Part shown: piece by piece, positions 90 to 34,167 of the stretch
Layout: each line of letters opens with the position of its first letter
How positions within the stretch are numbered: the stretch's first letter is position 1
DNA from: a virus
Strand: one strand, 5' to 3'
Virus record (IMG/VR): IMGVR_UViG_3300032157_000030
Span: 1 to 39,772 of that record
Length of the DNA stretch: 39,772 nt
The notes under the pieces: model-generated
The model's database searches: none
Told to the model about the DNA's origin: nothing
The model's input: only the letters and a program-made list of their open reading frames with translations
Made by a program: the position numbers and the translations under genes

Positions 90-438
<349 letters not shown>

Positions 439-474: not shown

Positions 475-524
475 TCTCAGTCCGTTGCCGTCAGGTTGCC
501 GTTGCAGCCTGGGCCGGACTGAGA
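475..524. promoter_or_regulatory. 10-bp inverted repeat over the integrase 3' end
   Basis: TCTCAGTCCG (475-484) is exactly complementary to CGGACTGAGA (515-524). The repeat spans the integrase stop codon at 491-493 and lies between that gene and attL. It may be an integrase arm-binding site or a weak terminator; no T-run follows on either side, so I favour neither. Confidence 0.4.
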
Positions 525-1600
525 TGAGTGGACCTGTCCTCGAGCAGCGCGATGGCCCGCCGGGTCTCCCCGGGGGCCAGGTGCATGTAGCGGAGCGTGG
601 TGGTGAGATCCTTGTGCCCCGCCAGCTCCATGATGGCCTTGGCCGTCGCTCCGCGCATTGCCAAGTGTGAGCAGAAGCTGTGCCTCAAGATGTGCACGTT
701 GCCGTTCACTTCGAGCCGTGCCCGTTTCTGCACCTTCATCAGCAGGCGCCGGAGAGCCTTGGGCGTGAACATCTCGCCCTTGCTGTCCGTGTACAGCACC
801 CGGTCTCCCTGTAGATGCTGGTGCCTCTTTAACGCCTGGTAGAGCCGCTCGGTCAAGGGCACGACTCGCGTGGTGCGACCCTTGGTGTCGTCTAGGCTGC
901 GCTCGCCTTTGATGACGACCTCTGCCTCCTCGATGGTGACGAGCCGGCGCCGTAGGTCACAGGCGGACCAGAGGAGCGGGAACATCTCGCTCCGCCGGAG
1001 CCCAGCCTCACCACCGAGCAACACGATGACTTCCGCCGTCGTGCTCACTTTGCGGGCGGCTTCGACCAACCACTCGAATTGATCGAAGTCATAGAAAGGC
1101 CGGCTCTTGTCCTGGCGGTCGTAGAGGCGGAATTTGTGGGGGACATGCGGGATGGACCCCAGCTCCGCCGCGACTTGGAGCAGGGAGTTCAGCGCCGTCG
1201 CGCTGTTGTTGTACGTGCTCCGGGACTTCCCTTCGAACCGCTTGCGCAACTTCACTTGGTCCCTGGGATCGAAGCTGTCGAGTCGACGGTCCCCAAAGAG
1301 CGGGACCAGATGAGCGCGGAGCACGCTCTCTTTGCTCTCGATGCCGGAAGCCTTGTGCCGCTCGCCCTTGCACCAGTCGATGAACTGGGACTCGAACTGG
1401 CAGAGCGTCGGGATGTCTGATGCCGCCTCCTTTCCGTGGGTGCCATCGAGCAGGGCTTGGCGGATCTGCCGCTCATACGCCTCTGCTCCCCGGCGCGTTT
1501 GGACGGGGGACGTCTTGCGGATCCTCTCGGCGCGCCCGTCCGCGTGCACGAAGTCTATATCCACGATCCACTTCTCTCGGTTGTTCTGTCTGACCGTCAT
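491..1600 (-). CDS. int: Tyrosine-family phage integrase
   Basis: This 369-residue site-specific recombinase most likely integrates and excises this prophage at ssrA. An N-terminal arm-type domain (residues 1-60) and a SAM-like core-binding domain (about 65-150) precede the catalytic domain (about 170-350). The catalytic set is complete: Arg202 in GLRRSE, Lys240 in DDTKGR, His303 and Arg306 in HILRHSF, His329 in AGHKDL and Tyr338 in TLRYMH. Length is normal for the family. It overlaps the upstream excisionase-like gene by 4 bases (ATGA), so the two are translationally coupled. It faces ssrA, as is usual for ssrA-specific integrases. Confidence 0.95.
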   Translation of the reverse strand: MTVRQNNREKWIVDIDFVHADGRAERIRKTSPVQTRRGAEAYERQIRQALLDGTHGKEAASDIPTLCQFESQFIDWCKGERHKASGIESKESVLRAHLVPLFGDRRLDSFDPRDQVKLRKRFEGKSRSTYNNSATALNSLLQVAAELGSIPHVPHKFRLYDRQDKSRPFYDFDQFEWLVEAARKVSTTAEVIVLLGGEAGLRRSEMFPLLWSACDLRRRLVTIEEAEVVIKGERSLDDTKGRTTRVVPLTERLYQALKRHQHLQGDRVLYTDSKGEMFTPKALRRLLMKVQKRARLEVNGNVHILRHSFCSHLAMRGATAKAIMELAGHKDLTTTLRYMHLAPGETRRAIALLEDRSTHLSPAQAATAT

Positions 1601-1854
1601 CGCCTGCCCTTTCGGGTTTGCGAGACGGGGACTTGGCCAGTAGAGAGCCAGGCTAGCACGGTGGGCCCGTGGATCCGTATAGAGCGACCCAGCTTCACGG
1701 CGCCGGGGAGCTGACCGTCCTGAATCAGGCCATAGAGAGTCTTGCGGTTGATCTTCAGCAGCGCGGCCAGCTCGTCGACAGTCAGGGCCGGGGAGCTGAA
1801 GCCGGGTGCGGAATCGGGTTCCGCTGCGTCCGTTGTCGAGGTGTCCTGTACCAT
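1597..1854 (-). CDS. xis: Excisionase-like HTH protein
   Basis: This 85-residue protein has a MerR/excisionase-type winged-helix DNA-binding domain at about residues 22-72: LTVDELAALLKINRKTLYGL, then a LPGAVKLGRSIRI wing and the typical AWLSTG end. A disordered acidic leader precedes it. It lies directly upstream of the integrase and overlaps it by 4 bases, so a role as recombination directionality factor is likely. It could also be a regulator of the integrase operon. The region upstream holds three TTTAGGG-type motifs that probably control it. Confidence 0.85.
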   Translation of the reverse strand: MVQDTSTTDAAEPDSAPGFSSPALTVDELAALLKINRKTLYGLIQDGQLPGAVKLGRSIRIHGPTVLAWLSTGQVPVSQTRKGRR

Positions 1855-2912: not shown

Positions 2913-3698
2913 TCAGTAGATGGGATCGTCGGCCAGGTCCGACTTGATGTCTGGGATCGACTTGTAGCCGAATCGATCCAGCGTGGCGCGCACGGTGCGC
3001 TGGAACGACGCGGACCCCAGGGGCGAGATGTAGACGGCTTCGATCAGCTTCTCCACGTCGACGGGGATCGCAAGCCCACCGTCACTGATCTCGAAATTCG
3101 CCTTCGCCGCGTCGACAGCCGCCTGGGCGCCTTCCGTAATCATCGCCACTGCCCGGACCTCCCGTTCATGCTGAAAGGCGTGCCGCTTGTGGAGGTAGGG
3201 AAAGTAGATGTTGTAGGGTGGAAGCGTCGCTGTCTTGTAGTCGATGTATTCGACGTGGCCGATGTTGATGCCCCAGTTGTCGGTGCTGCCTCGAGGCAGC
3301 GTCTTGGGGGGCAGCGCCTCTGCCAGTCGCCCGACGGTGGTCTTGATCGCGACCCCCTCCCCGGTAAGACCGTACAGGGACCACATGGCCTCCGACTCGT
3401 GAATGGCTCGGTGCCAGCAACTGATCGCGATGATGTTGCGGATGCGGACGCGCTCCTTGCGGTAGTTCTCGTAGGACTCGGGCGACATGGTCCGGGCCGC
3501 GTACTCGCGCATGTGATCGTCGAGTCGCTTTGGCACCGATCCCTCGAACCGGTCCTTGAAGTTGCGTGCGCGGCAGAAAAAGAGCCGCCGGGTGTCGAGC
3601 AGCGAGATGAGTTTTGGGAGCGTGTGATAGCGCCAGAGGATGGTATCCGCGGGCGGAATCTTGAAAGCTTCGTGATGCTCGGGGCAGTAGTAGTACAC
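2913..3698 (-). CDS. DUF2971-like protein
   Basis: The 261-residue protein has the pattern of DUF2971 proteins: an N-terminal WRYHTLPKLISLL, then LFFCRARNFKDRFEG (the 'F.D.FEG' motif), AISCWHRAIHESEAMWSLYGLTGEGVAIK in the middle, and a FQHEREVRAVA motif near residue 180. Two N-terminal residues (Cys5, His8) might form part of a metal site. The family has no settled function but often occurs in mobile and defence-rich regions. The start is GTG at 3698. It is flanked by unrelated genes on both sides and is likely a lysogenic accessory gene. Confidence 0.8.
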   Translation of the reverse strand: MYYYCPEHHEAFKIPPADTILWRYHTLPKLISLLDTRRLFFCRARNFKDRFEGSVPKRLDDHMREYAARTMSPESYENYRKERVRIRNIIAISCWHRAIHESEAMWSLYGLTGEGVAIKTTVGRLAEALPPKTLPRGSTDNWGINIGHVEYIDYKTATLPPYNIYFPYLHKRHAFQHEREVRAVAMITEGAQAAVDAAKANFEISDGGLAIPVDVEKLIEAVYISPLGSASFQRTVRATLDRFGYKSIPDIKSDLADDPIY

Positions 3699-5467: not shown

Positions 5468-5608
5468 ATGAAAAACAGGACTCCGCTCCATGTCTCAACC
5501 CTTTCAGCAATTGCTGAAGCGCAAGTACTCGACCCAAGAGAAGGTCGACAACATCGGTCTCGTCAAGACGACGTTCACCAAGGACGTCCCCAAGAAAGTC
5601 GATCCTGA
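5468..5608 (+). CDS. Possible leader peptide overlapping the capsid start
   Basis: An ATG at 5468 has the best Shine-Dalgarno sequence of the area (GGAGGAAACCTC before it) but opens a different frame from the capsid gene. It would encode 46 residues (MKNRTPLHVSTLSA...), ending inside the capsid gene at 5608. It might couple or tune capsid translation. The second half is strongly basic and looks like shadow sequence of the capsid frame, so confidence is low. Confidence 0.22.
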   Translation: MKNRTPLHVSTLSAIAEAQVLDPREGRQHRSRQDDVHQGRPQESRS

Positions 5609-6797
5609 GGGGGAGAGCTACACCTCATTCCTGACCGTCTCCGGTGGTCAGGCTTGGTCCGGTACCCGTGCGGGTGCCAGGGCCATCAGCGGTCAGGGCA
5701 ACGGTCGCGGCAACGGCGACTGGATCCAGATCACCAACAAGCACGGCTCCATCAAGGGCGAGGTGCGTTGGGACGAGCTGGACATCAAGCGCGCCAACAG
5801 TGGCTCCGCCTCTGCAATGCGCGCCGTGCTCGCTCACACGGACGGGCACCTTGCCAACTTCGGTCAGTTCCATGAGGGCTACATCCTCAACCACCGAGGC
5901 GGCTACCTCTGCACTGGGACCGTAGACGGCTCCGGTCTCGTCACGATCACGAGCAACGCAGAGCACGTCACCCGCATTCGCAAGCACATGATCCTCGTGG
6001 CGAGCGCTGCCAACGGGACGAGCGGCTCCCTCTTGGGCGCACCGAGCCTGGGCTATGTCATCTCCACCAGTCGCACCGGCGCCACGACGACGTTCACCGT
6101 CTCGACGACGAGCGGTGGATCCGCTGGGACCCCCGCCTCGTGGACGGGAACCATGTACTTTTTCATCTACGAGTCATGGTACGGCGCCAACGGCGGGGCG
6201 TGCACCGACGGCGGGACAGACGCATCATTCCTCATCGACAGCATCGACAGCTGGTGCCCGTCGACGGCGCCGGGTGCCACGCCGTTCAAGGGCGTCGTCC
6301 GCAACACGGACGACCTGCTCGGTGGCTTGCGGCTGACTTCTACGGAAGTCGCGGGCAAGAACACGCTCGAGCGTCTCCAGCTCCTGGCCGTGACCGGTGA
6401 GAGCCGATTCGGTTGGGAGAAGCGCAAGCGCAAGGTCTATCTCCACCCGACCCGGTTCCTCGAGGCGAGCATCCTGCTCCAGTCGACGGACATGCGGGAA
6501 CGTGGCTTCAAGGGCGACAGCACCGCGGGCGTTGGCTACGACGGCATCGTCGTCAAGTGCACCGGCGCGGAATTCGAGCTGATCTCGACGCCCCTCATGG
6601 ACCCGGACACGGCATGGATGCTGGTGCCGGAACTGTGGCTCCTCCACAGCCACGCTGGCTGGCCCGGGGTCATCGACGACGACGGTCTCCGTTTCGTCCG
6701 CATCGACGGTGAGGACGCTTTCGCCCTCCAGTACACGGCCTATGGCTCGCTCCGCACCGAGAACCCGGCCGAGGTCGCTCGCTGCCCGCTCAACTGA
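5490..6797 (+). CDS. Putative major capsid protein
   Basis: This 435-residue protein forms the head shell in my reading. The N-terminal part (LVKTTFTKDVPK, then YTSFLTVSGGQAWSGTRAGARA, residues about 20-65) and the central helical stretch (GSASAMRAVLAHTDGHLANFGQFHEGYIL) follow the pattern of HK97-fold coat proteins of short-tailed phages. There a 'GR.A...A......' strand precedes a long helix that distributes subunits. A Thr/Ser/Gly-rich beta insert (about 150-215) could be a surface domain. ATG 5490 has AGGA at 5477-5480. Position first in a short, separately terminated operon, typical for the most abundant protein, supports the call. No homology search was possible. Confidence 0.72.
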   Translation: MSQPFQQLLKRKYSTQEKVDNIGLVKTTFTKDVPKKVDPEGESYTSFLTVSGGQAWSGTRAGARAISGQGNGRGNGDWIQITNKHGSIKGEVRWDELDIKRANSGSASAMRAVLAHTDGHLANFGQFHEGYILNHRGGYLCTGTVDGSGLVTITSNAEHVTRIRKHMILVASAANGTSGSLLGAPSLGYVISTSRTGATTTFTVSTTSGGSAGTPASWTGTMYFFIYESWYGANGGACTDGGTDASFLIDSIDSWCPSTAPGATPFKGVVRNTDDLLGGLRLTSTEVAGKNTLERLQLLAVTGESRFGWEKRKRKVYLHPTRFLEASILLQSTDMRERGFKGDSTAGVGYDGIVVKCTGAEFELISTPLMDPDTAWMLVPELWLLHSHAGWPGVIDDDGLRFVRIDGEDAFALQYTAYGSLRTENPAEVARCPLN

Positions 6798-13928: not shown

Positions 13929-16097
13929 ATGGGCGGCTTTCTCAGCACTAATCCCTTTACCAAGCTTGGGGAGACCCTCAAGACCGCGCTGAACTCCGAC
14001 GAGTTCAAGCAGCAGAAACAGGCCTACGACGAGCAGCGTGCGGCGAGCATCGCCGACAACACGCCTCCCTCGATTGGCGCCACCCTCCGGGGCATCGAGG
14101 ACACGAGACAGGAAGTGCTCGGTGCCGGGCAAGGCGTCCGCAACACGACGGGGGCACAGGCCAACAACTTGATGAGTCAGGCTGGGCAGAGCATTTTCTC
14201 TGCTCCGAGCATCACCAAGGCTCCGGCGACAGGACTCTTGGCTGGCTTCAACCCGACGTTGCCAATCCGATCCGCGGGCGCAGCCCCCGCCCCTGCTGCC
14301 TCGGGAAACGGCCCTCACATCGTTCAGCCCACGACGAGCGTGGGGGGAACGATTCAAACGGTCCCAAACATCAACCAGCTGATAGCGAGCGGCGGCTACC
14401 AGTCGGGGGGAACCAGCAACGGCTACCAGCAACTCCCCGCGTCGCTTCTCAACAACCGCCCGAATCTCATGGCTCGACAAGAGCCGGCTCCGTTTCAGGT
14501 CGGGCAACAACTCGCTCGTCCCCAGCTCTCTGCTCCTCCCGCAACGATTGCCAATCGCCTGGGTGCGGCTCCCGCTCAGCAGACGGCCATGTCGATCGCC
14601 GAACGTCTCGGGGCGGCTCCGACGGTGGGGAGCGTCAACGACGTCCAGATGGGAGCCGCTCCCGGGGACGTAGCGGGACGGCTGGGCAACATGGGCCAGG
14701 CCAACGCTGGCCAACAGAATTTCCTCTCGAGGATCGAGGGATTCCTCGACGCGCCCGAGGGCCCCAGCGTGGCCGAGGCCCAGCTCCGCCAAGCCCAGGC
14801 CGACAATATGGGCAACCTGCTCGGTGCGGCTCGTTCCGGACGCGGTGGAGCGGGTGCACAAGCCCAAGCCCTCCGGGGGGCCATCAGTGAGGGCGCCGCT
14901 CTGTCGAGTGACACCGCCGGGCAGATGGCCACGCTCCGTGCCCAGGAGCAGGACATGCGTCAGGGGCGCAACCTCCAAGCCATGGGGCTCGGGAGCGACC
15001 TCTCGACGGCCCAGCGCGCCGGGGATCTCAGCTTCCGGGGTCAGGATCTCTCTGCACTCCAGGGGGACCAGTCGACGTCGCTCGGTGCTCGGGGCCAGGA
15101 CCTCTCTGCTGCTCAGGGCAATCAATCGACGCAGCTGGGGCTCCAGCAACTCTCCGCTCAGACGGCCCTGGGGGCCAGGGGACAGGACCTCTCTGCTCTC
15201 CAAGGAGATCAAGGCGCGTACACCCAAATGGCCGGCATCAACGCTCAGACGGCACTGGGCGCACGGGGACAGGACCTCGGTGCTCTCCAGTCCGATCAGT
15301 CGACGTCGCTGGGAGCACGGGGCCAGGACCTCGAGGGCAACATCGCCTATCGAGGCCAGGACGTTCAGACGCGGGATCAAGACAGGCAGGCGCTCACCGA
15401 CGACGCCAACCGTTCGGTCGCCACCAACGAGCTGAATCTACGTAGAGAGCTGGGCCTCACTGACTTGGGGCTACAGGCACAGGGCCAGGGCCTTGCTTAC
15501 GACCAAGCCATGCAGGGCTACGGGCTCGGTGCCTTGGGCATGGCCACCGACTACAACAACAACGAGCACAATCGCGCCGTCCAGCTGTCGCTGGGCAACC
15601 AAGCCATCGACTCTCAAATGCAGATGCAGCGGAACGAGATCAACTCTCGTCCCTCGTATTGGGAGCAACTCGGTCTATCGCTCGCCGGCAACGTCCCCCA
15701 GGGCGCGGGCATGGCGCTCGGTGGCTACCTGGGCAGCGACGAGCGAGCCAAGACGGACATCTCCCCGCTCGACAAGCTCGAGGCGTTTGCAGATTCGCCC
15801 GCCAACGAACTCGTCCGGAAGTCTCCGGGCTACAGCTACCGATACACGGACGGCGCCTCCCGCTCGCTCGGTGAGGACCCGAGCGTCGAGCACTGGGGCC
15901 CGATGGCTCAGGACCTCGAGAAGTCCAAGATCGGGCGCTCTCTCGTCCGCCAGGGAAAGGACGGCATCAAGCGCGTCGACGTGGGCCGCCTGGCTCTCAC
16001 CGACCACGCGGCGCTCCATACGATGCGGAGAGAGCTGGACACCGTCCGGGAGATCCTCGGGCCTCTCTCTAGGTTCCTCCAGGACGGCGCTGCCTGA
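13929..16097 (+). CDS. Virion protein with C-terminal S74 chaperone domain
   Basis: The 722-residue protein is Gly/Ala/Gln-rich. Its middle (about residues 370-480) carries six RGQDL/V units, mostly spaced 18-30 residues. The end is an intramolecular chaperone of the endosialidase/S74 type: Ser603 in GSDERAKTDISPLD, then YSYRYTDG, HWGPMAQDLE and a final helix (ALHTMRRELDTVREIL). S74 domains help trimeric fibres fold and usually cut themselves off before the Ser of the SDxRxK motif. The next gene overlaps at TGATG. It is either a second fibre or an internal protein; the neighbouring ejection-type genes favour the latter. Confidence 0.75.
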   Translation: MGGFLSTNPFTKLGETLKTALNSDEFKQQKQAYDEQRAASIADNTPPSIGATLRGIEDTRQEVLGAGQGVRNTTGAQANNLMSQAGQSIFSAPSITKAPATGLLAGFNPTLPIRSAGAAPAPAASGNGPHIVQPTTSVGGTIQTVPNINQLIASGGYQSGGTSNGYQQLPASLLNNRPNLMARQEPAPFQVGQQLARPQLSAPPATIANRLGAAPAQQTAMSIAERLGAAPTVGSVNDVQMGAAPGDVAGRLGNMGQANAGQQNFLSRIEGFLDAPEGPSVAEAQLRQAQADNMGNLLGAARSGRGGAGAQAQALRGAISEGAALSSDTAGQMATLRAQEQDMRQGRNLQAMGLGSDLSTAQRAGDLSFRGQDLSALQGDQSTSLGARGQDLSAAQGNQSTQLGLQQLSAQTALGARGQDLSALQGDQGAYTQMAGINAQTALGARGQDLGALQSDQSTSLGARGQDLEGNIAYRGQDVQTRDQDRQALTDDANRSVATNELNLRRELGLTDLGLQAQGQGLAYDQAMQGYGLGALGMATDYNNNEHNRAVQLSLGNQAIDSQMQMQRNEINSRPSYWEQLGLSLAGNVPQGAGMALGGYLGSDERAKTDISPLDKLEAFADSPANELVRKSPGYSYRYTDGASRSLGEDPSVEHWGPMAQDLEKSKIGRSLVRQGKDGIKRVDVGRLALTDHAALHTMRRELDTVREILGPLSRFLQDGAA
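15036..15370 (+). repeat. Imperfect repeats coding for RGQDL units
   Basis: Six related segments encode RGQDL(S/G)A.Q..QS or RGQDV, mostly 54-90 bases apart. They suggest a rod-like coiled or helical shaft and possible length variation by recombination. Confidence 0.6.
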
Positions 16098-24871: not shown

Positions 24872-26446
24872 CTAGGCAACCCGACGTCCCCCGCGCCGCT
24901 GCTGGTGCTGCTTGATCCGCCTCCCTTGGCGAATCGAGGCCTCTAACTCCCGCTTTTCCTGCTCCGCGCGCCACTGCTCGGAGCCCGGCTTGGGCCGCGT
25001 CGGCGGGGGTACGTAGAGTTGAGACAGCGGATAGACACTATGGAGCACGGCATCCGTGACGTCGTCGGGAACACCCTCTCGATGAGTCTGTCGATCCTTG
25101 CTCCATGAGAGAGTGATCCATTCCGTGAGTAGATCCACACAATGCTCGCGGCGCATCTTGAGATTGCCGTTCTCGAGCAAGCTTCTCAGATATTCAATGC
25201 GAGGCTTCTTGCGAGCACCCTTCGCAACACGCTGTGCCCACACACCATAGTTGCCCAAGTCCTCCAGACGTTGGTCGCCGACACCGCCCGTATCTACGTA
25301 GATTTCCCCAGCTCCCCAGAATGCCCGTAGCTTCTTGATCTCCCCCGCTATCTGCTCGGTGTTCAGTTCTGGGACACGGTAGGCCTCGAGCAGGATCACT
25401 TCCGGGGACTCGAGACACTTGGCCGCTACGGCAAAGCCGTTGCCATCGCTCCAGCCTACGTCGACCCCGATGATCTTGCGCCAGACCCGGCGGGGGTCCA
25501 GCTGGTAGGATTCGGGGACGAGGTTCCGCTCCGTGTGCGGGTAGACCCTGGACTCGTTGTCCCGGACCCAGAGGGCGAGGATCTCCCGCCGGAACGCGGC
25601 CGACAGCTTGGCTCGGAGCCGGGTCCAGTCCTCGTTGTCGTTGGCGGGGACGTCCCGGAGGCGGAGTAGCTCTGCGACGATCTCCTCCGGCGGAGTGTCG
25701 TCGAGAATGTGCGAGCCGGCTTCTAGGTCCTCGAGCAGCGCGGTGGCCGCGTCGATGTAGGGATTGTCGAGCGCGGTCCAGTGATGCGTCGACCATTGGG
25801 GTTTGGGCTTGCCCTGGTGATCGCGCCCCGTGGAGCATTCAAAGAAGTAGCCGATGGGATCCAGCCCCGGGCTGCCCACGAGGGCGAGCTGGCCACCGCC
25901 CAGGTGGACGGTGTCCATGAATTGCTTCACGAGGACGTCGTTGATCAGATACTTGAATTGGTCGTCGTGCCCTTGGAACGAGCCAGCCTCATCGATGACG
26001 GCACGCCGGAGGCCGTTGGCGAAACCGCGGAACCTCTCGATCTGGACCTTGTCGGACGCCCCCGCTAACCGAATCTGGTAGCCGTTGGGCAGCGTTGCCG
26101 TCTGCTCGCCGTTGTTGAACGTGATGCCGAGCCCATACTTGGCATCGAATTTGAGCAGGGTGGGCCAGATGATCCGCTTGGCGTGATCCTGGCTGAGCGC
26201 AATGAACAGGGAGAGGTGGCCGCCCCACTCTTGCCAGTTTTCTAGGAGCCAGGCAGCGATGCCGTGAGAGCCGCCCGCGCGCCGTCCTTTGAGCGCCACC
26301 TTGCGTGGGCTCGGGTCCTCGACGAAGGCCCGCTGCTTGGGATGCAGGTCCGCGAGGATGCGGCTCCAGGAGTCCGCGCCGACGTTGTCGACGTGGAGCG
26401 AGGCGAGGATGTCCGCTAGCTCGTAGTGGTCGGGCTCGACGATCAC
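24872..26446 (-). CDS. terL: Terminase large subunit
   Basis: The 524-residue ATPase-nuclease packages DNA into the head through the portal. Motifs: adenine-binding LHPKQRAF (34-41), a deviant Walker A KGRRAGGS (53-60) with the lysine at the front, Walker B AVIDEA (149-154; Asp152, Glu153), a VGSPG coupling motif (190-194), and the C-terminal RNase H-like nuclease acids Asp329 (IIGVDVGW), Asp385 (IYVDTGG) and an Asp near 476 (DDVTDAV). The start is GTG 26446. It is divergent from the portal gene, 42 bases apart, which is unusual because the two normally run together. Confidence 0.93.
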   Translation of the reverse strand: MIVEPDHYELADILASLHVDNVGADSWSRILADLHPKQRAFVEDPSPRKVALKGRRAGGSHGIAAWLLENWQEWGGHLSLFIALSQDHAKRIIWPTLLKFDAKYGLGITFNNGEQTATLPNGYQIRLAGASDKVQIERFRGFANGLRRAVIDEAGSFQGHDDQFKYLINDVLVKQFMDTVHLGGGQLALVGSPGLDPIGYFFECSTGRDHQGKPKPQWSTHHWTALDNPYIDAATALLEDLEAGSHILDDTPPEEIVAELLRLRDVPANDNEDWTRLRAKLSAAFRREILALWVRDNESRVYPHTERNLVPESYQLDPRRVWRKIIGVDVGWSDGNGFAVAAKCLESPEVILLEAYRVPELNTEQIAGEIKKLRAFWGAGEIYVDTGGVGDQRLEDLGNYGVWAQRVAKGARKKPRIEYLRSLLENGNLKMRREHCVDLLTEWITLSWSKDRQTHREGVPDDVTDAVLHSVYPLSQLYVPPPTRPKPGSEQWRAEQEKRELEASIRQGRRIKQHQQRRGGRRVA

Positions 26447-26462
26447 TCACGAGAAAGTCGAT

Positions 26463-26473
26463 AAAGCTTTTGT
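26463..26473 (+). promoter_or_regulatory. Weak AATCCA-type leader motif before the portal gene
   Basis: AAAGCTTTTGT starts 26 bases before ATG 26489. It keeps the TTTGT part of the motif at the usual distance but not the AATCCA part. It lies in the short gap between the divergent terminase and portal genes. Confidence 0.35.
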
Positions 26474-26488
26474 GCGGGCGCTCTGCCA

Positions 26489-28447
26489 ATGCGTCCGCGC
26501 GAGCAATGGCACCAACTTGAGGATGAGCAGGCAGCGGGAGCGGCCCTCGTCTCTGTCGCCAAGAAGTATCAAGAGCGCTGCACCTCCAGGAAATCCCGCG
26601 CCACCTCTCTGCTCTCCCTCTACGAGGGTCAGAGCCTCGGCTCTTTTGGTGCGAGTGCCTACGACGACGCAGAGCCGTTCACGTATGCCCCCGCCGGCAA
26701 CGGCAACACGGCGGAGCCGCCCGGTCCACCCGTCGATCAGATCTGGAATCTCGGCGCGTCCATCATGGACGCGATCGACGCCAAGCTTTTCCAGCAGCGC
26801 ACCAAGACGGCTTTCGTCACCACCAATGGCGGGTGGGAAGCCAAGAGAGCCGCCGTCCTCGCTGGGCGTTTCGTCGAGGGCATCCAGTCCGAGCCCCAAG
26901 GGATTTTTCAGGACTCCTGGGCCATGTGGAGGCACGGGGCCCGCATCGCCACCACCAGCACGGGCGGGTGCATGGTCTGGTTCTGGAGCGATCCAGACGA
27001 GGGCAAGATCGTCATGGAGTTGGACGACACCCTCTCGACGTGGGTGGAGACGAGCGGCCTTGCCTACGACGGCATCAGCGCGATCGGGCGCATCACCTAT
27101 TGGGACCCCGAAAAGCTCGCCGCGAAATACCCGCAGTTCGAGGCCCAGATCTTCAGCGCCGTCGACCGAGCGGAGAACGACCTCCGAGACATCACCAACT
27201 TTGACGACGAGCTGGGCCCCGACGAGGTGAAGCGCGTCCCGCTCGTCCAAGGCTTTCGGATGAAAGCCCCGGGCGTCAAGGGCGTGAAGTTGATCGCGAT
27301 CCCCGGCGCGACCCTAGAGAGAGACGAGTACGACTACGACTACCCGCCGTGCGTCCACTTCTGCCCGATGAGGCAGATCGCCGGCTACTGGGGCAAGCCT
27401 CTACTCGAGCGCATCGCCAAACCACTCGAGTACATGAACCAACTCGTCGCGGGCATGTGCGACGCAGAGCGACTCACACCCAAAGGCGCGGTCATCTACA
27501 ACCCTACGGTGACGCCCCCAGCGTCGCTCGCTGAAATCAAGAACGTCGTTCTCATCCCTCATGCGGGGCCACCGGAGATGGCTCCCCGCTACGAGGCACC
27601 GCAACCGTGGAACCCCGCCGTCCGGCAGTGGCTCTTTGACTTCAAGCAGATTTGTTACGACCTGGCTGGCATGACCGAGGCCGCGGTCACGGCTGGACGT
27701 GAAAAAGGCCTCTCGAGCGGTGTAGCCATCCGCTTGGTTCAGGAGCAGACCCACGAGCGCTTTGCTCCCGTGGAAGAGGAGTTTGCTCGCTGCGTTGGTC
27801 CGGAGAGCGCCAAGCAGATCATCCGGTGCGCCCAAGAGATCGAAAGAAGGGGCAAGTTCACGGCCGCGTGGAAAAGCGGAGAGGAGAACGGGTTCCTCAC
27901 CGAGATCCCGGCTGACGTGTTCAATGTGCTCGACGACTATAAGTACAAGGTCGAGCCTCAAGTCGTCAGCGGCAACGTCAACACGCCTGCCGATCGCATC
28001 GAGCTAGCCGAGGAGCTGATGTCCGCCGGCATCATCACCGGGCAGAGCTACGCCGCAATCGTGACTCACTACGACACTCCCGGCTCCACGGGCTCCGACA
28101 TCAACGCGGCCGAGGAACAGTTCACGGAGCGCCAGATCGACAACTGGCTCTATGCCGAGGAGGACGATCTCGAAGAGAGCTACCAGGGCCCGGAGAAGTG
28201 GTTCCAGCAAGACCAAAGGCTCCTTCAAGTCGGCGCTGCCCTGCTCCACGCCAAGATGCAGCAGTGCCCACCGGAGCGGCTCCTCTACTTCATGCGATTC
28301 ATGGCGGAGCTGCAGCTCCAGATCGAGCAGAAGCAAAACCGGCAAGTTCAGCTCCAGGCCGCTGCCTCCGGGCAAGGTCCCGCCCCCGCTCCCACGGCTG
28401 CACCCGAGCAAGCCGCACCACCACCGGCGCCCGCGATGGCCGCCTGA
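26489..28447 (+). CDS. Portal protein
   Basis: A 652-residue podoviral-type portal. The layout is typical: an N-terminal helical wing, an alpha/beta part (about 160-300), the conserved middle region with GYWGKPLLERIAKPLEYMNQLVAGMCD (a 'G......P...N' helix), the loop with MTEAAVTAGREKGLSSGVAIRLV, and a long helical C-terminus with Gln-rich and Pro/Ala-rich ends (residues about 590-652). It forms the dodecamer through which DNA passes. Size fits the P22/epsilon15 range. The scaffold gene follows after 17 bases. Confidence 0.85.
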   Translation: MRPREQWHQLEDEQAAGAALVSVAKKYQERCTSRKSRATSLLSLYEGQSLGSFGASAYDDAEPFTYAPAGNGNTAEPPGPPVDQIWNLGASIMDAIDAKLFQQRTKTAFVTTNGGWEAKRAAVLAGRFVEGIQSEPQGIFQDSWAMWRHGARIATTSTGGCMVWFWSDPDEGKIVMELDDTLSTWVETSGLAYDGISAIGRITYWDPEKLAAKYPQFEAQIFSAVDRAENDLRDITNFDDELGPDEVKRVPLVQGFRMKAPGVKGVKLIAIPGATLERDEYDYDYPPCVHFCPMRQIAGYWGKPLLERIAKPLEYMNQLVAGMCDAERLTPKGAVIYNPTVTPPASLAEIKNVVLIPHAGPPEMAPRYEAPQPWNPAVRQWLFDFKQICYDLAGMTEAAVTAGREKGLSSGVAIRLVQEQTHERFAPVEEEFARCVGPESAKQIIRCAQEIERRGKFTAAWKSGEENGFLTEIPADVFNVLDDYKYKVEPQVVSGNVNTPADRIELAEELMSAGIITGQSYAAIVTHYDTPGSTGSDINAAEEQFTERQIDNWLYAEEDDLEESYQGPEKWFQQDQRLLQVGAALLHAKMQQCPPERLLYFMRFMAELQLQIEQKQNRQVQLQAAASGQGPAPAPTAAPEQAAPPPAPAMAA

Positions 28448-28464
28448 ACGAGGTCGACGAGTAG

Positions 28465-29667
28465 ATGCCTCACGAGGATACCGCGGCACCAGCCGCTCCA
28501 GCACCCGCACCGTCCAAAGTCGAGTCGGACGACGAAATCATTGCGTCCATCACCAAAGAGATCGCGGACACCAAGGACGACAAGCTCGCCGCGGAACTCG
28601 ACGACGACGACGAGCCCAAGGCCAAGGGGAAACCCAAGCCCGAGGCGGACGACGACGAGGACGACACCGTCGACTCCGACGCGGACGACGACGAGGAGGA
28701 AACGGCCGAGGACGACGACGAGCGAGATCGGCGGGAGACCGAGCCCGACCTCCCGGAGAACAAGCGCCTCAAGAAGGCCAACGCCCTGCTCGAGGAGGGC
28801 GATCTAGAGGGCGCGCTCAAACTCGCTTTCGGGAAGGACTCCGCCTTTTTCAAAATCGACGGGGCGAAGTGGAGCAACTACCGCGACCAAGTGAAGCGCG
28901 ACAAGCAAGCTCTCCGCGCGCGGGAAGCCCAGCTCGACGCCAGGCTTCAGGAGCTACAGGCCGAATATCACCAGACCGTGGACCAGCTCCGCCCGGCTGC
29001 CAAATTGTTCAAGCTGCAGAGCGAGTTTGCCCAGAACCGGGACTATGCCGCGCTCATCCAGCTGTGTGAGGGCATCACCGGCGAGCAGTGGGACACCATC
29101 AACAAGAATTGCCTCAAGGGTGCCAAGCGCTCCCCGGAGGCCCTCCGACTCCAGCAGCAAATCGACAAGCTCCAAGCGGATATCGCCAAGCGGGAGGAGG
29201 CTGCCCAGCAGCAAAAGCAGCAACTCACCCAGGAGCAGGTCTACGCCAAGGACCTCGAGACGATCCGCTCTCAGTTGGGCAAGCACGCCGTCCGCAAAGT
29301 GCCCAACTTCGAGAGGCGCGTTTACAACGTCCTCATCAAGACCAAGGACCCTCACCTGGGGCTGACCCTATCGATGGAGGAGGCCGCTGCTCGCGTCATC
29401 CGTGGGGAAAAGAAGCGCGTCGAGCAGAGCAAGTGGCTGCTGGAGGGTAAGAAAACCAAGGCACCCGAGGTCGAGCCCGACGAGGTAGAGGAGCCCAAAA
29501 GCGCCAAGGGTAAGCCCGGCGTAAAGAAGGCCGGGACCACTCTGCTGCGTAGAGACTCGCAAGCCAACGGCGCCACGAGCAAGGAGGAGAGCGACGACGA
29601 GATCATCCGCGACCTCCAGCGGCAGATCAGCCGGGGCAAGGTGGCCGCGAGAAAGAAGGCCTCGTGA
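28465..29667 (+). CDS. Scaffolding protein
   Basis: The 400-residue protein has the typical composition of a procapsid scaffold: a long acidic region (residues about 45-95, runs of Asp and Glu), a coiled-coil middle (about 140-190 and 230-270) and a basic C-terminus (RDLQRQISRGKVAARKKAS) of the kind that contacts coat protein. It follows the portal gene, the usual place. It overlaps the next gene by 4 bases (GTGA). In most phages the capsid gene would follow; here it is about 20 kb away in the prophage. Confidence 0.78.
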   Translation: MPHEDTAAPAAPAPAPSKVESDDEIIASITKEIADTKDDKLAAELDDDDEPKAKGKPKPEADDDEDDTVDSDADDDEEETAEDDDERDRRETEPDLPENKRLKKANALLEEGDLEGALKLAFGKDSAFFKIDGAKWSNYRDQVKRDKQALRAREAQLDARLQELQAEYHQTVDQLRPAAKLFKLQSEFAQNRDYAALIQLCEGITGEQWDTINKNCLKGAKRSPEALRLQQQIDKLQADIAKREEAAQQQKQQLTQEQVYAKDLETIRSQLGKHAVRKVPNFERRVYNVLIKTKDPHLGLTLSMEEAAARVIRGEKKRVEQSKWLLEGKKTKAPEVEPDEVEEPKSAKGKPGVKKAGTTLLRRDSQANGATSKEESDDEIIRDLQRQISRGKVAARKKAS

Positions 29668-30356
29668 GGCGGCTGCGCTCCGAATACATCCTCTGTGTAG
29701 AGGATGAGGAGCTGGACCGCTCGAGCCGGAGCAGCGGGGGCATCATCGCGCCGGTGATGTACACGCTGAAAGGCAAAGACAAGGACCAGCTGTTCATGGC
29801 TCGGGTCGTTCAGACCGGGCCCGGCAAGCTCGATGCGTCAGTGGGGGAGCGCCGTCCCGTGTGCGTCAGCAAGGGCGACATGCTGATGATGCTCCAAAAC
29901 AACGTCAGCTACCGCGTCACCCTCCAACAGCGGCCGCACTACGTCGTCCAGAATCGTTTCGTTGGCGGCGTGCTCTCAGAGGATCTCGAAGTGACCCCCA
30001 AACAACACTACATCTTGGTGAAGTCCGACCCGGAGAAAGCCCGGCTCGCCACCATCGGCAAGGGCATCCTCCATTTGGCCAGCGTCGAGATCGACACCGA
30101 TGACATCCGGCGCCGGAGCGGCATCCAGGCGGAGTATGGCGTCGTCGTCTCCAAGGGACCGGGGGCCTGGATCGACGGCAACTGGCTCGAGCCGGAGTGT
30201 GAAGTCGGCGACCTCATCCTCTACGACAAGTCGCACAGCACGATCCCGGTGATGATCCGCGGGCAGACGGGCTACACGCTCGTCCCCTCCGACATGCTCA
30301 TCATGGGGGACGATCTCGCCGACCTGCTCGGTGAGGAGCAGCGCGCAGCTAGCTAA
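29664..30356 (+). CDS. Tandem GroES-like co-chaperonin
   Basis: The 230-residue protein looks like two Cpn10/GroES folds in one chain. Repeat 1 (about 6-105) has a mobile-loop-like SSGGIIAP (23-30), RVVQTGPGKLD (47-57) and VSKGDMLMM (68-76). Repeat 2 (about 114-216) has HYILVKSDPEK, a loop with GKGILHL (132-138), YGVVVSKGPG (158-167), CEVGDLILYDK (179-189) and GYTLVPSDMLIM. These match 'VLVK', 'GGIIIP', 'VVAVGPG', 'VKVGDRVLF' and 'YLI....DILA' of GroES. It probably works with host GroEL to fold the capsid or scaffold protein, as T4 gp31 does. Start GTG 29664. Confidence 0.75.
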   Translation: MRRLRSEYILCVEDEELDRSSRSSGGIIAPVMYTLKGKDKDQLFMARVVQTGPGKLDASVGERRPVCVSKGDMLMMLQNNVSYRVTLQQRPHYVVQNRFVGGVLSEDLEVTPKQHYILVKSDPEKARLATIGKGILHLASVEIDTDDIRRRSGIQAEYGVVVSKGPGAWIDGNWLEPECEVGDLILYDKSHSTIPVMIRGQTGYTLVPSDMLIMGDDLADLLGEEQRAAS

Positions 30357-30779: not shown

Positions 30780-31754
30780 ATGGCCGCAGCCTACGTCAGC
30801 CATACCACCGGCGTAGCCTCGAGATCGGTCACGGTCCCCGCCGGCACGGACCGGCTGCTCGTGGCGATCGCTCTATCGACCGCGTCCACGGGCGCGCGAA
30901 CCGCCACCTACGGCGGGGTCAGCATGTCCGTGGCCACGACGGCCAACGGCTGGGCTCAGATCTTCTACATGCTGTCACCCCCGGCGGGAGCAGCGACCTT
31001 GGCCGTCAGCGGGGCCAACGTCAGCACGGTCATCGCTGCGCACTACACGGGGATTGGCTCGTTTCAGACGAGCAGCGGGCAACAAGGCTCGGTCGCTAGC
31101 GCTAGCTTCACGCCCACGACGGCGGGTCTCATCGTCTTTGGGCTGGTGGCGAGCACCACCAGCCATACCCCCGTAGCGAGCACGAATGAGCGCTACGACA
31201 CCGGGGGAGACTACTACGCCGATCGGCTCGTCTCGAGCGGCGGAGCGGTCACGGTGGGGGTCTCCGCTGCCACTGACCCGGACTATGCCGGCGCGATTTT
31301 CTGGGAACCGATCAGCGCCACGGGCTCCCCCAGCTCGAGCGTTTGCACGGCGAGCGGCACACTGCAGACCTCTGCGTTCATTGGTGCAGCCACTTCCAGC
31401 GTTTCCACGGCGAGCGGAACCGCCACCGTCGTGGTCAGCGCCACGGGGGCACCCTCGAAGTCTGCCGCTACGACGAGCGGCACTGCCACGGTCACGGTCG
31501 CTGCCACGGGCTCCCCCAGCTCCACGGCGGCCACCACGAGCGGCACCGTGGGGGTCGTGGTCAGCGCCTCTGGGGCGGTCACCACGGGCAGCGCCACCGC
31601 TTCGGGGACCGCTGTGCTGATACCTCCGGTGGGCGGAACCATCGAGCTGACGAGCACGCTCGCTCAACGGGTGAGGGCACGGAGCCAGCTCCGGGACGTG
31701 GTCCTGTCCTCGAGCGAGCTGGTCCAGCGGGTGAGAGCCCGGCACGCCCTCTAG
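30780..31754 (+). CDS. Repeat-containing appendage protein
   Basis: The 324-residue protein has a beta-rich N-terminal domain (about 1-180) and then five Ser/Thr/Ala/Gly repeats of about 24 residues (such as TASGTATVVVSATGAPS; 31321-31620). The C-terminus carries two LAQRVRAR/LVQRVRAR units. The first domain looks like a jelly-roll or lectin-type structural module. Repeats of this sort are typical for phage surface decoration or fibre stalks. It follows the preceding gene by 10 bases. Confidence 0.68.
   Translation: MAAAYVSHTTGVASRSVTVPAGTDRLLVAIALSTASTGARTATYGGVSMSVATTANGWAQIFYMLSPPAGAATLAVSGANVSTVIAAHYTGIGSFQTSSGQQGSVASASFTPTTAGLIVFGLVASTTSHTPVASTNERYDTGGDYYADRLVSSGGAVTVGVSAATDPDYAGAIFWEPISATGSPSSSVCTASGTLQTSAFIGAATSSVSTASGTATVVVSATGAPSKSAATTSGTATVTVAATGSPSSTAATTSGTVGVVVSASGAVTTGSATASGTAVLIPPVGGTIELTSTLAQRVRARSQLRDVVLSSSELVQRVRARHAL
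31321..31620 (+). repeat. Tandem repeats in the appendage gene
   Basis: About five imperfect 72-base units encode SGTAxVxVSATGxPS-type sequence. Because of their similarity they could change in number by slippage. Confidence 0.65.
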
Positions 31755-33690: not shown

Positions 33691-34167
33691 ATGGCGGGTA
33701 ACAAGCGGGTGGCCTGGATTCTAGGAGCAGGGTTCAGCGTCCCGCTCGGAGGGCCGCTCTTTAGGGAACTCATCTCCGACGAGATGTTGCGCCGTCTGAT
33801 CCAGTGGGACGAGTACACGCAAGCCAAATGGATGGCGCAGTGTCCGCACGGGGACGGGTGGAACGGACTTCAGTTGAACGCGGGTGTGTCGGCTCGGATT
33901 GTCGCTTGGCTCTATGAGGCAGGGCTAGGTAAGGAGGGCACTGCCAAGCTGTGGGAGGATGCAGAGCAGTTTCTCGAGCGCCTCGAGATCGCGGCGAGCG
34001 GCTCACTACTCGTCGGGGCCCGGGTGGTATCCAGCCCTCAGCAGTTCATGACGGGCTATTTCGGGCCCAACATCTTTGGGCTGGGCGCCAAGATGCCCGG
34101 CGCGACCCAAGGTCTGCTCACGACCCCGGCTCGAGCTGCGCTGATGGCTTACGATCAGCCGACTTGA
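33691..34167 (+). CDS. Truncated SIR2-like protein
   Basis: A 158-residue protein whose first 95 residues resemble the N-terminus of the full-length SIR2-like protein at 35010-36194: VAWILGAGFSVPLGGPLFRELIS here against IAWVFGAGFSVPLGGPPFKDLIS there, and KLWEDAEQFLERLEIA against ALWSDAEQFIEVLDIA. The GAGFS nucleotide-binding loop (12-16) is present but the FNHD and HLHGH parts needed for NAD hydrolysis are absent. The end is unrelated. It may be a decayed copy or a regulatory partner of the full-length enzyme. Confidence 0.75.
   Translation: MAGNKRVAWILGAGFSVPLGGPLFRELISDEMLRRLIQWDEYTQAKWMAQCPHGDGWNGLQLNAGVSARIVAWLYEAGLGKEGTAKLWEDAEQFLERLEIAASGSLLVGARVVSSPQQFMTGYFGPNIFGLGAKMPGATQGLLTTPARAALMAYDQPT

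Follow-up and report, generated by a model that had tools for sequence, protein, structure and literature searches.

A tandem GroES-like co-chaperonin gene beside the portal and scaffold genes of an uncultured podovirus-type phage

The window analysed here comprises an entire IMG/VR record (39,772 bases), in which an open reading frame on the plus strand, beginning with GTG, encodes a chain of 230 residues with two GroES-like domains. This gene closes a unit whose other members, a portal gene and a scaffold-type gene, lie directly upstream. The identities of the head genes rest on homologues that follow the order TerL-portal-scaffold-capsid in many related contigs, and the features of the locus are as follows:

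5490-6797 (+): major capsid protein, 435 aa, a possible client, assigned from capsid homologues
24872-26446 (-): terminase large subunit, 524 aa, divergent from the portal gene, assigned from terminase homologues
26489-28447 (+): portal protein, 652 aa, a possible client, assigned from homologues in the gene order TerL-portal-scaffold-MCP
28465-29667 (+): scaffold-type protein, 400 aa, assigned from its position, its composition and its homologue in the related contigs L024 and L118
29664-29667 (+): GTGA overlap of the scaffold stop and the co-chaperonin start (ATGA in L024), read from the sequence
29664-30356 (+): tandem (two-domain) GroES-like co-chaperonin, 230 aa, assigned from Pfam, PHROG, our own GroES profile, profile-profile comparison and the homologues in L024 and L117
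29664-29984 (+): N-terminal GroES domain, residues 1-107, assigned from the GroES profile, Pfam, profile-profile comparison and a model of the N half
29985-30323 (+): C-terminal GroES domain, residues 108-220, assigned from the GroES profile, Pfam, profile-profile comparison and a structure match

The GTGA overlap between the scaffold and co-chaperonin genes likely reflects translational coupling. A first-pass annotation of this DNA had placed the gene in a head operon, between scaffold and structural genes, which holds only in part: portal and scaffold do adjoin it upstream, but the major capsid gene is found ahead of the tail genes, at a distance of about 23 kb, and the terminase gene is on the opposite strand. 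The split between the capsid gene (5490-6797) and the terminase-portal-scaffold block (24872-29667) is shared with L024, while these genes are contiguous in most relatives. No GroEL gene was found in the 39,772-base record, and neither portal nor terminase had a match among 50,697 phage records.

Three profile searches each aligned to two stretches of the 230-residue chain, as expected from the earlier claim that two GroES-type halves are joined in it: Pfam PF00166 (Cpn10; 30 bits, E = 5.3e-7, curated cut-off 21.1 bits), the PHROGs family phrog_3188 "co-chaperonin GroES" (E = 3.6e-9) and our own profile combining E. coli GroES with six GroES sequences from phages, which gave 32.9 bits over two non-overlapping domains, far above the maximum of 7.7 bits reached by 2,000 shuffles of the same residues. 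Taken singly, the halves score 16.9 and 17.3 bits against Pfam Cpn10, below the cut-off, and the domains are therefore divergent. When the window/L024 pair was aligned to GroES profile against profile, the match was clearer for the C half (95%, E = 2.6e-8) than for the N half (74%, E = 2.7e-5). Because the direct comparison of N half and C half in this pair is weak by itself (E = 0.034), the evidence for an internal repeat lies in the GroES match of each half. At the level of sequence profiles, these results confirm the window protein as a member of the GroES/Cpn10 co-chaperonin superfamily with two domains arranged head to tail.

Structure prediction of the halves, suggested in the same annotation, matched Cpn10 folds for both of them and thus points to a GroES beta-barrel in the window protein, in models of low confidence. 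The whole-chain AlphaFold model, built on a two-sequence alignment, has a mean pLDDT of 54 and a pTM of 0.55, and its best PDB match is chain Q of 7ekq, Chaperonin 23 (222 alignment columns, E = 8e-5); chain R of 7ekq is likewise among the best matches, followed by Cpn10 structures of bacterial and mitochondrial origin. The C half aligns to Thermus Cpn10 (1wnr) over 73 residues with a Z-score of 9.8 and an rmsd of 3.7 (VIA-align). A separate AlphaFold model of the N half (pLDDT 65) returned co-chaperonins as all of its first 16 entries (Z 4.7-6.0), the best at Z 6.0 and rmsd 4.2 over 75 aligned residues, with a best Foldseek E-value of 1e-4; this model is supporting rather than independent evidence because its alignment included rows from the C half.

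The segments of low pLDDT in the whole-chain model, residues 16-42 and 131-153, fall where GroES mobile loops are expected, and residues 54-66, also of low confidence, lie at the expected position of the roof. The two loops are:

29697-29798 (+): N-domain loop, residues 12-45, with GGIIAP, the presumed GroEL-docking mobile loop, from profile alignments and the low pLDDT of residues 16-42
30021-30137 (+): C-domain loop, residues 120-158, with GKGILH, a presumed second mobile loop that is poorly conserved, from alignment and the low pLDDT of residues 131-153

Both have a glycine followed by a hydrophobic tripeptide (GGIIA and GKGIL), which at the level of the motif is the docking pattern of GroES mobile loops. 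Counted on GroES alignments from the first strand to the strand after the loop, the N-half loop spans 34 residues and the C-half loop 39, compared with 24 in E. coli GroES.

Relatives of this phage were reached solely through terminase and capsid alignments, the former yielding 80 related viral contigs; pattern scans of viral and genome contigs with the single protein gave no match. Among these 80 is L024, a contig of 40,242 bases whose terminase is 53% and whose capsid protein is 55-56% identical to those of the window. It shares the gene layout, including a distant capsid gene, and encodes a tandem homologue of 234 residues (41% identity) after its scaffold gene, with an ATGA overlap. This protein scores 30.7 bits against Pfam Cpn10, and its halves match separately (E = 2e-13 and 9.6e-9) when searched with a GroES alignment that includes the halves of the window protein. 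Identity between the two proteins is 47-73% in barrel segments and 18-29% in the roof and C loop, the distribution that two folded GroES barrels would lead one to expect. The capsid alignment led to L117, a more distant contig with a tandem GroES gene between terminase and portal:

L117, 2387-3124: tandem GroES, 245 aa, with two Cpn10 stretches

Its product matches Pfam Cpn10 over these two stretches (41.6 bits, E = 1.3e-10), has canonical mobile loops in both halves (GGLILP and GGIYMP) and consists of halves related to each other (E-values of 5e-7 and 2e-5). A loop glycine followed by a hydrophobic stretch is present in every half of the three tandem proteins, six in all. In a small and poorly resolved domain tree that contained no plastid sequences, the two L117 halves grouped together with a support of 0.54. 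The tandem co-chaperonin is real and conserved within a small set of uncultured phages of podovirus type.

About 80 other related contigs gave no GroES match in the stretches fetched near their head genes, so that this phage group does not seem to need a co-chaperonin in general. The 23 whole records searched yielded nothing beyond the tandem gene of L024, one single-domain GroES gene remote from the head genes and one match below the threshold. The record search with PF00166 missed the window itself, a false negative, and the negatives are backed by a GroES alignment that does recover the window. A related phage record (G215, contig L108) carries at 1498-1809 a single-domain GroES gene of 103 aa with a GGIILPG loop, at a distance from its head genes.

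Most of the GroES genes known from phages encode one domain. Xanthomonas phage PBR31, Shewanella phage 1/44 and Vibrio phage 1.055.O resemble the window in carrying GroES among head or tail genes, and PBR31 has it just before terminase, portal, scaffold and capsid, but these proteins consist of one domain of 91-107 aa. T4 gp31 and its relatives are, like the window protein, made by the phage, have longer loops than E. coli GroES and presumably fold a head protein. Gp31 is, however, a single domain of about 110 aa, and the two-domain window protein does not belong to this type; its match to the gp31 fold (1g31) reaches Z 5.9, and that of its N half Z 5.5, weaker than to Cpn10.

Other public phage records hold genes annotated as GroES that would accommodate two domains. 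Such genes, of 180-200 aa and close to terminase, are annotated in Cellulophaga and Flavobacterium podophages: Cellulophaga phages of the Pachyviridae encode a 200-aa "co-chaperonin GroES" separated from terminase by one gene, and Elemovirus phages a 180-aa "co-chaperonin GroES/cpn10" directly before terminase. A Manatee Spring podovirus has a 187-aa homologue. These proteins share with the window protein a two-domain size and a place near terminase, either immediately ahead of it or with one gene in between. In Cellulophaga phi18:3 gp096, the C half alone passes Pfam Cpn10 and the other half is weak in profile-profile comparison; no homology to the window protein is detectable beyond the GroES motif. 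Over most of the window chain, the phi18:3 protein ranks with two viral proteins of 183 and 304 aa among the best fold matches from viruses. Phage phi18:3 (L104) has two GroES-annotated genes, at 31108-31362 (84 aa) and, near terminase, at 41458-42060 (200 aa), and the longer of the two is possibly tandem as well. The 180-200-aa phage "co-chaperonins" near terminase are probably two-domain proteins as well, and two-domain phage co-chaperonins beside terminase probably constitute a recurring, unremarked type; the collection of papers searched held none on phage tandem co-chaperonins. A tandem form unique to the window phage is ruled out by L024, L117 and these two-domain-size genes.

The likeness to chloroplast Cpn20 that had been noted from the sequence is borne out by the sequence profiles, by models matching Cpn10 and the tandem chains of 7ekq, and by the homologues in L024 and L117. 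Members of the Cpn20 family (plant Cpn20/21, Chlamydomonas CPN20 and CPN23, and Plasmodium cpn20) join, like the window protein, a pair of head-to-tail GroES domains within a single chain of ca. 21-24 kDa and bring an even number of domains to a seven-fold partner; the window protein differs in being encoded by a phage within a terminase-portal-scaffold neighbourhood. Its sequence is no more similar to Cpn20 than to single-domain Cpn10 (chain Q of 7ekq is matched by sequence at E = 0.13), and such comparison gives no evidence that the phage fusion and the plastid fusion are of common origin. Even-numbered tandem co-chaperonins do function with seven-fold GroEL: plastid Cpn20 assembles into tetramers or combines with Cpn10 so that seven domains are reached, and concatemers of six or eight domains still work with GroEL (PMC5780408, PMC4242682). 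Rings that mix tandem with single-domain subunits are formed in plastids (PMC4242682), and Plasmodium cpn20 is reported to substitute for GroES in E. coli (PMC3542282). T4 gp31, in turn, provides together with GroEL a larger chamber for the capsid protein gp23 (PMC5780408).

By analogy with Cpn20 and gp31, and given the coupling to portal and scaffold genes, the window gene probably encodes a Cpn20-like phage co-chaperonin that, alone or together with host GroES, acts as a lid on host GroEL in the folding of a head protein. Each domain would form a small beta-barrel with a flexible loop, and the hydrophobic tripeptide in this loop (IIA for the N domain, ILH for the C domain) would make the contact with the GroEL apical domains. 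Side by side, the chains could build a GroES-like dome either from four chains with one domain left out or from three chains and one host GroES subunit, which would make seven. Loops longer than those of E. coli GroES would perhaps give a roomier chamber, as in the case of gp31, and the overlapping start and stop codons would tie its synthesis to that of portal and scaffold. The binding to GroEL, the composition of the ring and the client are what we infer from these analogies; the client would be a morphogenesis protein, most likely the major capsid protein or the portal. Weighing against this reading are the low confidence of the models, the poorly conserved C loop, the lack of a GroEL gene in the record, the relatives that show no co-chaperonin beside the corresponding genes and the distance to the capsid gene. 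More doubtful is a stricter version with an obligate mixed lid, in which, since an even count of domains does not fill a seven-fold ring, three tandem chains and one host GroES would form an asymmetric, enlarged dome for the head protein and the fusion would have arisen more than once in podophages, convergently with chloroplasts.

The chief rival, which we consider unlikely, is that the protein keeps the GroES fold but no longer cooperates with GroEL, and that it takes part in head assembly itself or is a minor component of the virion, e.g., at the portal or with the scaffold. The start/stop coupling and placement with scaffold and portal would suit this role, as would the weak conservation of the C-half loop and the pattern GDMLMM..NVSYR..PH[FY]VVQNR, which goes beyond shared GroES features and is kept only in the window/L024 pair. 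Yet the N-half loop retains GGI[IL]xP in both of these proteins and L117 is canonical in both halves, which would be needless for a structural protein; related phages also assemble without any tandem protein, and PBR31-like phages put an ordinary single-domain GroES before the same gene block. The divergence of the C-half loop, which is 25% identical between window and L024 and has no GGI motif in the latter, could also mean that the C half is a decaying copy and that the N domain alone acts as an ordinary gp31-like co-chaperonin. This we regard as the least probable reading, since the C-half barrel is 47-60% identical between the same two proteins, the C half beats the N half in profile comparison with GroES, and in L117 it is the more canonical half.

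It is similarly improbable that the protein is a decoy or inhibitor that enters the host GroES ring or caps another ring such as ClpP and thereby alters host proteostasis during infection. The mixed rings of plastid tandem proteins (PMC4242682) offer a precedent for such interference, and the top structural match, 7ekq, is a co-chaperonin on the chloroplast ClpP complex, but this match reflects the shared tandem GroES fold and does not indicate a partner. A further point against it is that window and L024 both couple the gene to late head genes, and that in L117 it lies in the same late block.

Tandem co-chaperonins have been described from plastids and their relatives, and how an even count of GroES domains meets seven-fold GroEL is a standing puzzle. 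The window protein is new as a described variant, falling within the known phage co-chaperonins and parallel to Cpn20. A phage tandem form recurring beside terminase, portal or scaffold offers a small, testable system for asymmetric lids and bears on mixed lids with host subunits and on which head protein needs a custom folding chamber.

The remainder of the record holds several further features. A complete tmRNA gene at 90-438 (+) (Rfam RF00023, 133.8 bits, tag ANDNALALAA) adjoins genes for a tyrosine integrase and an HTH_17 protein (491-1600 (-) and 1597-1854 (-)), and this arrangement likely reflects integration at the ssrA 3' end. Within the window, none of the exact repeats of 12 or more bases that 300-490 could supply recurs, and the second attachment site may thus lie outside it. 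A Myxococcota host, raised by one terminase match in Anaeromyxobacter, was not supported: neither the tandem protein nor a capsid relative appeared in the sampled genome sets, which had no positive control, and the tmRNA matched mainly in its conserved 3' end. A 158-aa open reading frame at 33691-34167 starts with a glycine motif, GAGFS, that resembles one in SIR2-like proteins, and has no match in Pfam or PADLOC. The gene at 2913-3698 (-) matches the PADLOC candidate defence family PDC-S31 (E = 1.8e-18) and, weakly, DUF2971, and the protein encoded at 13929-16097 ends in a C-terminal Peptidase_S74 (endosialidase chaperone) domain (E = 2.3e-8).
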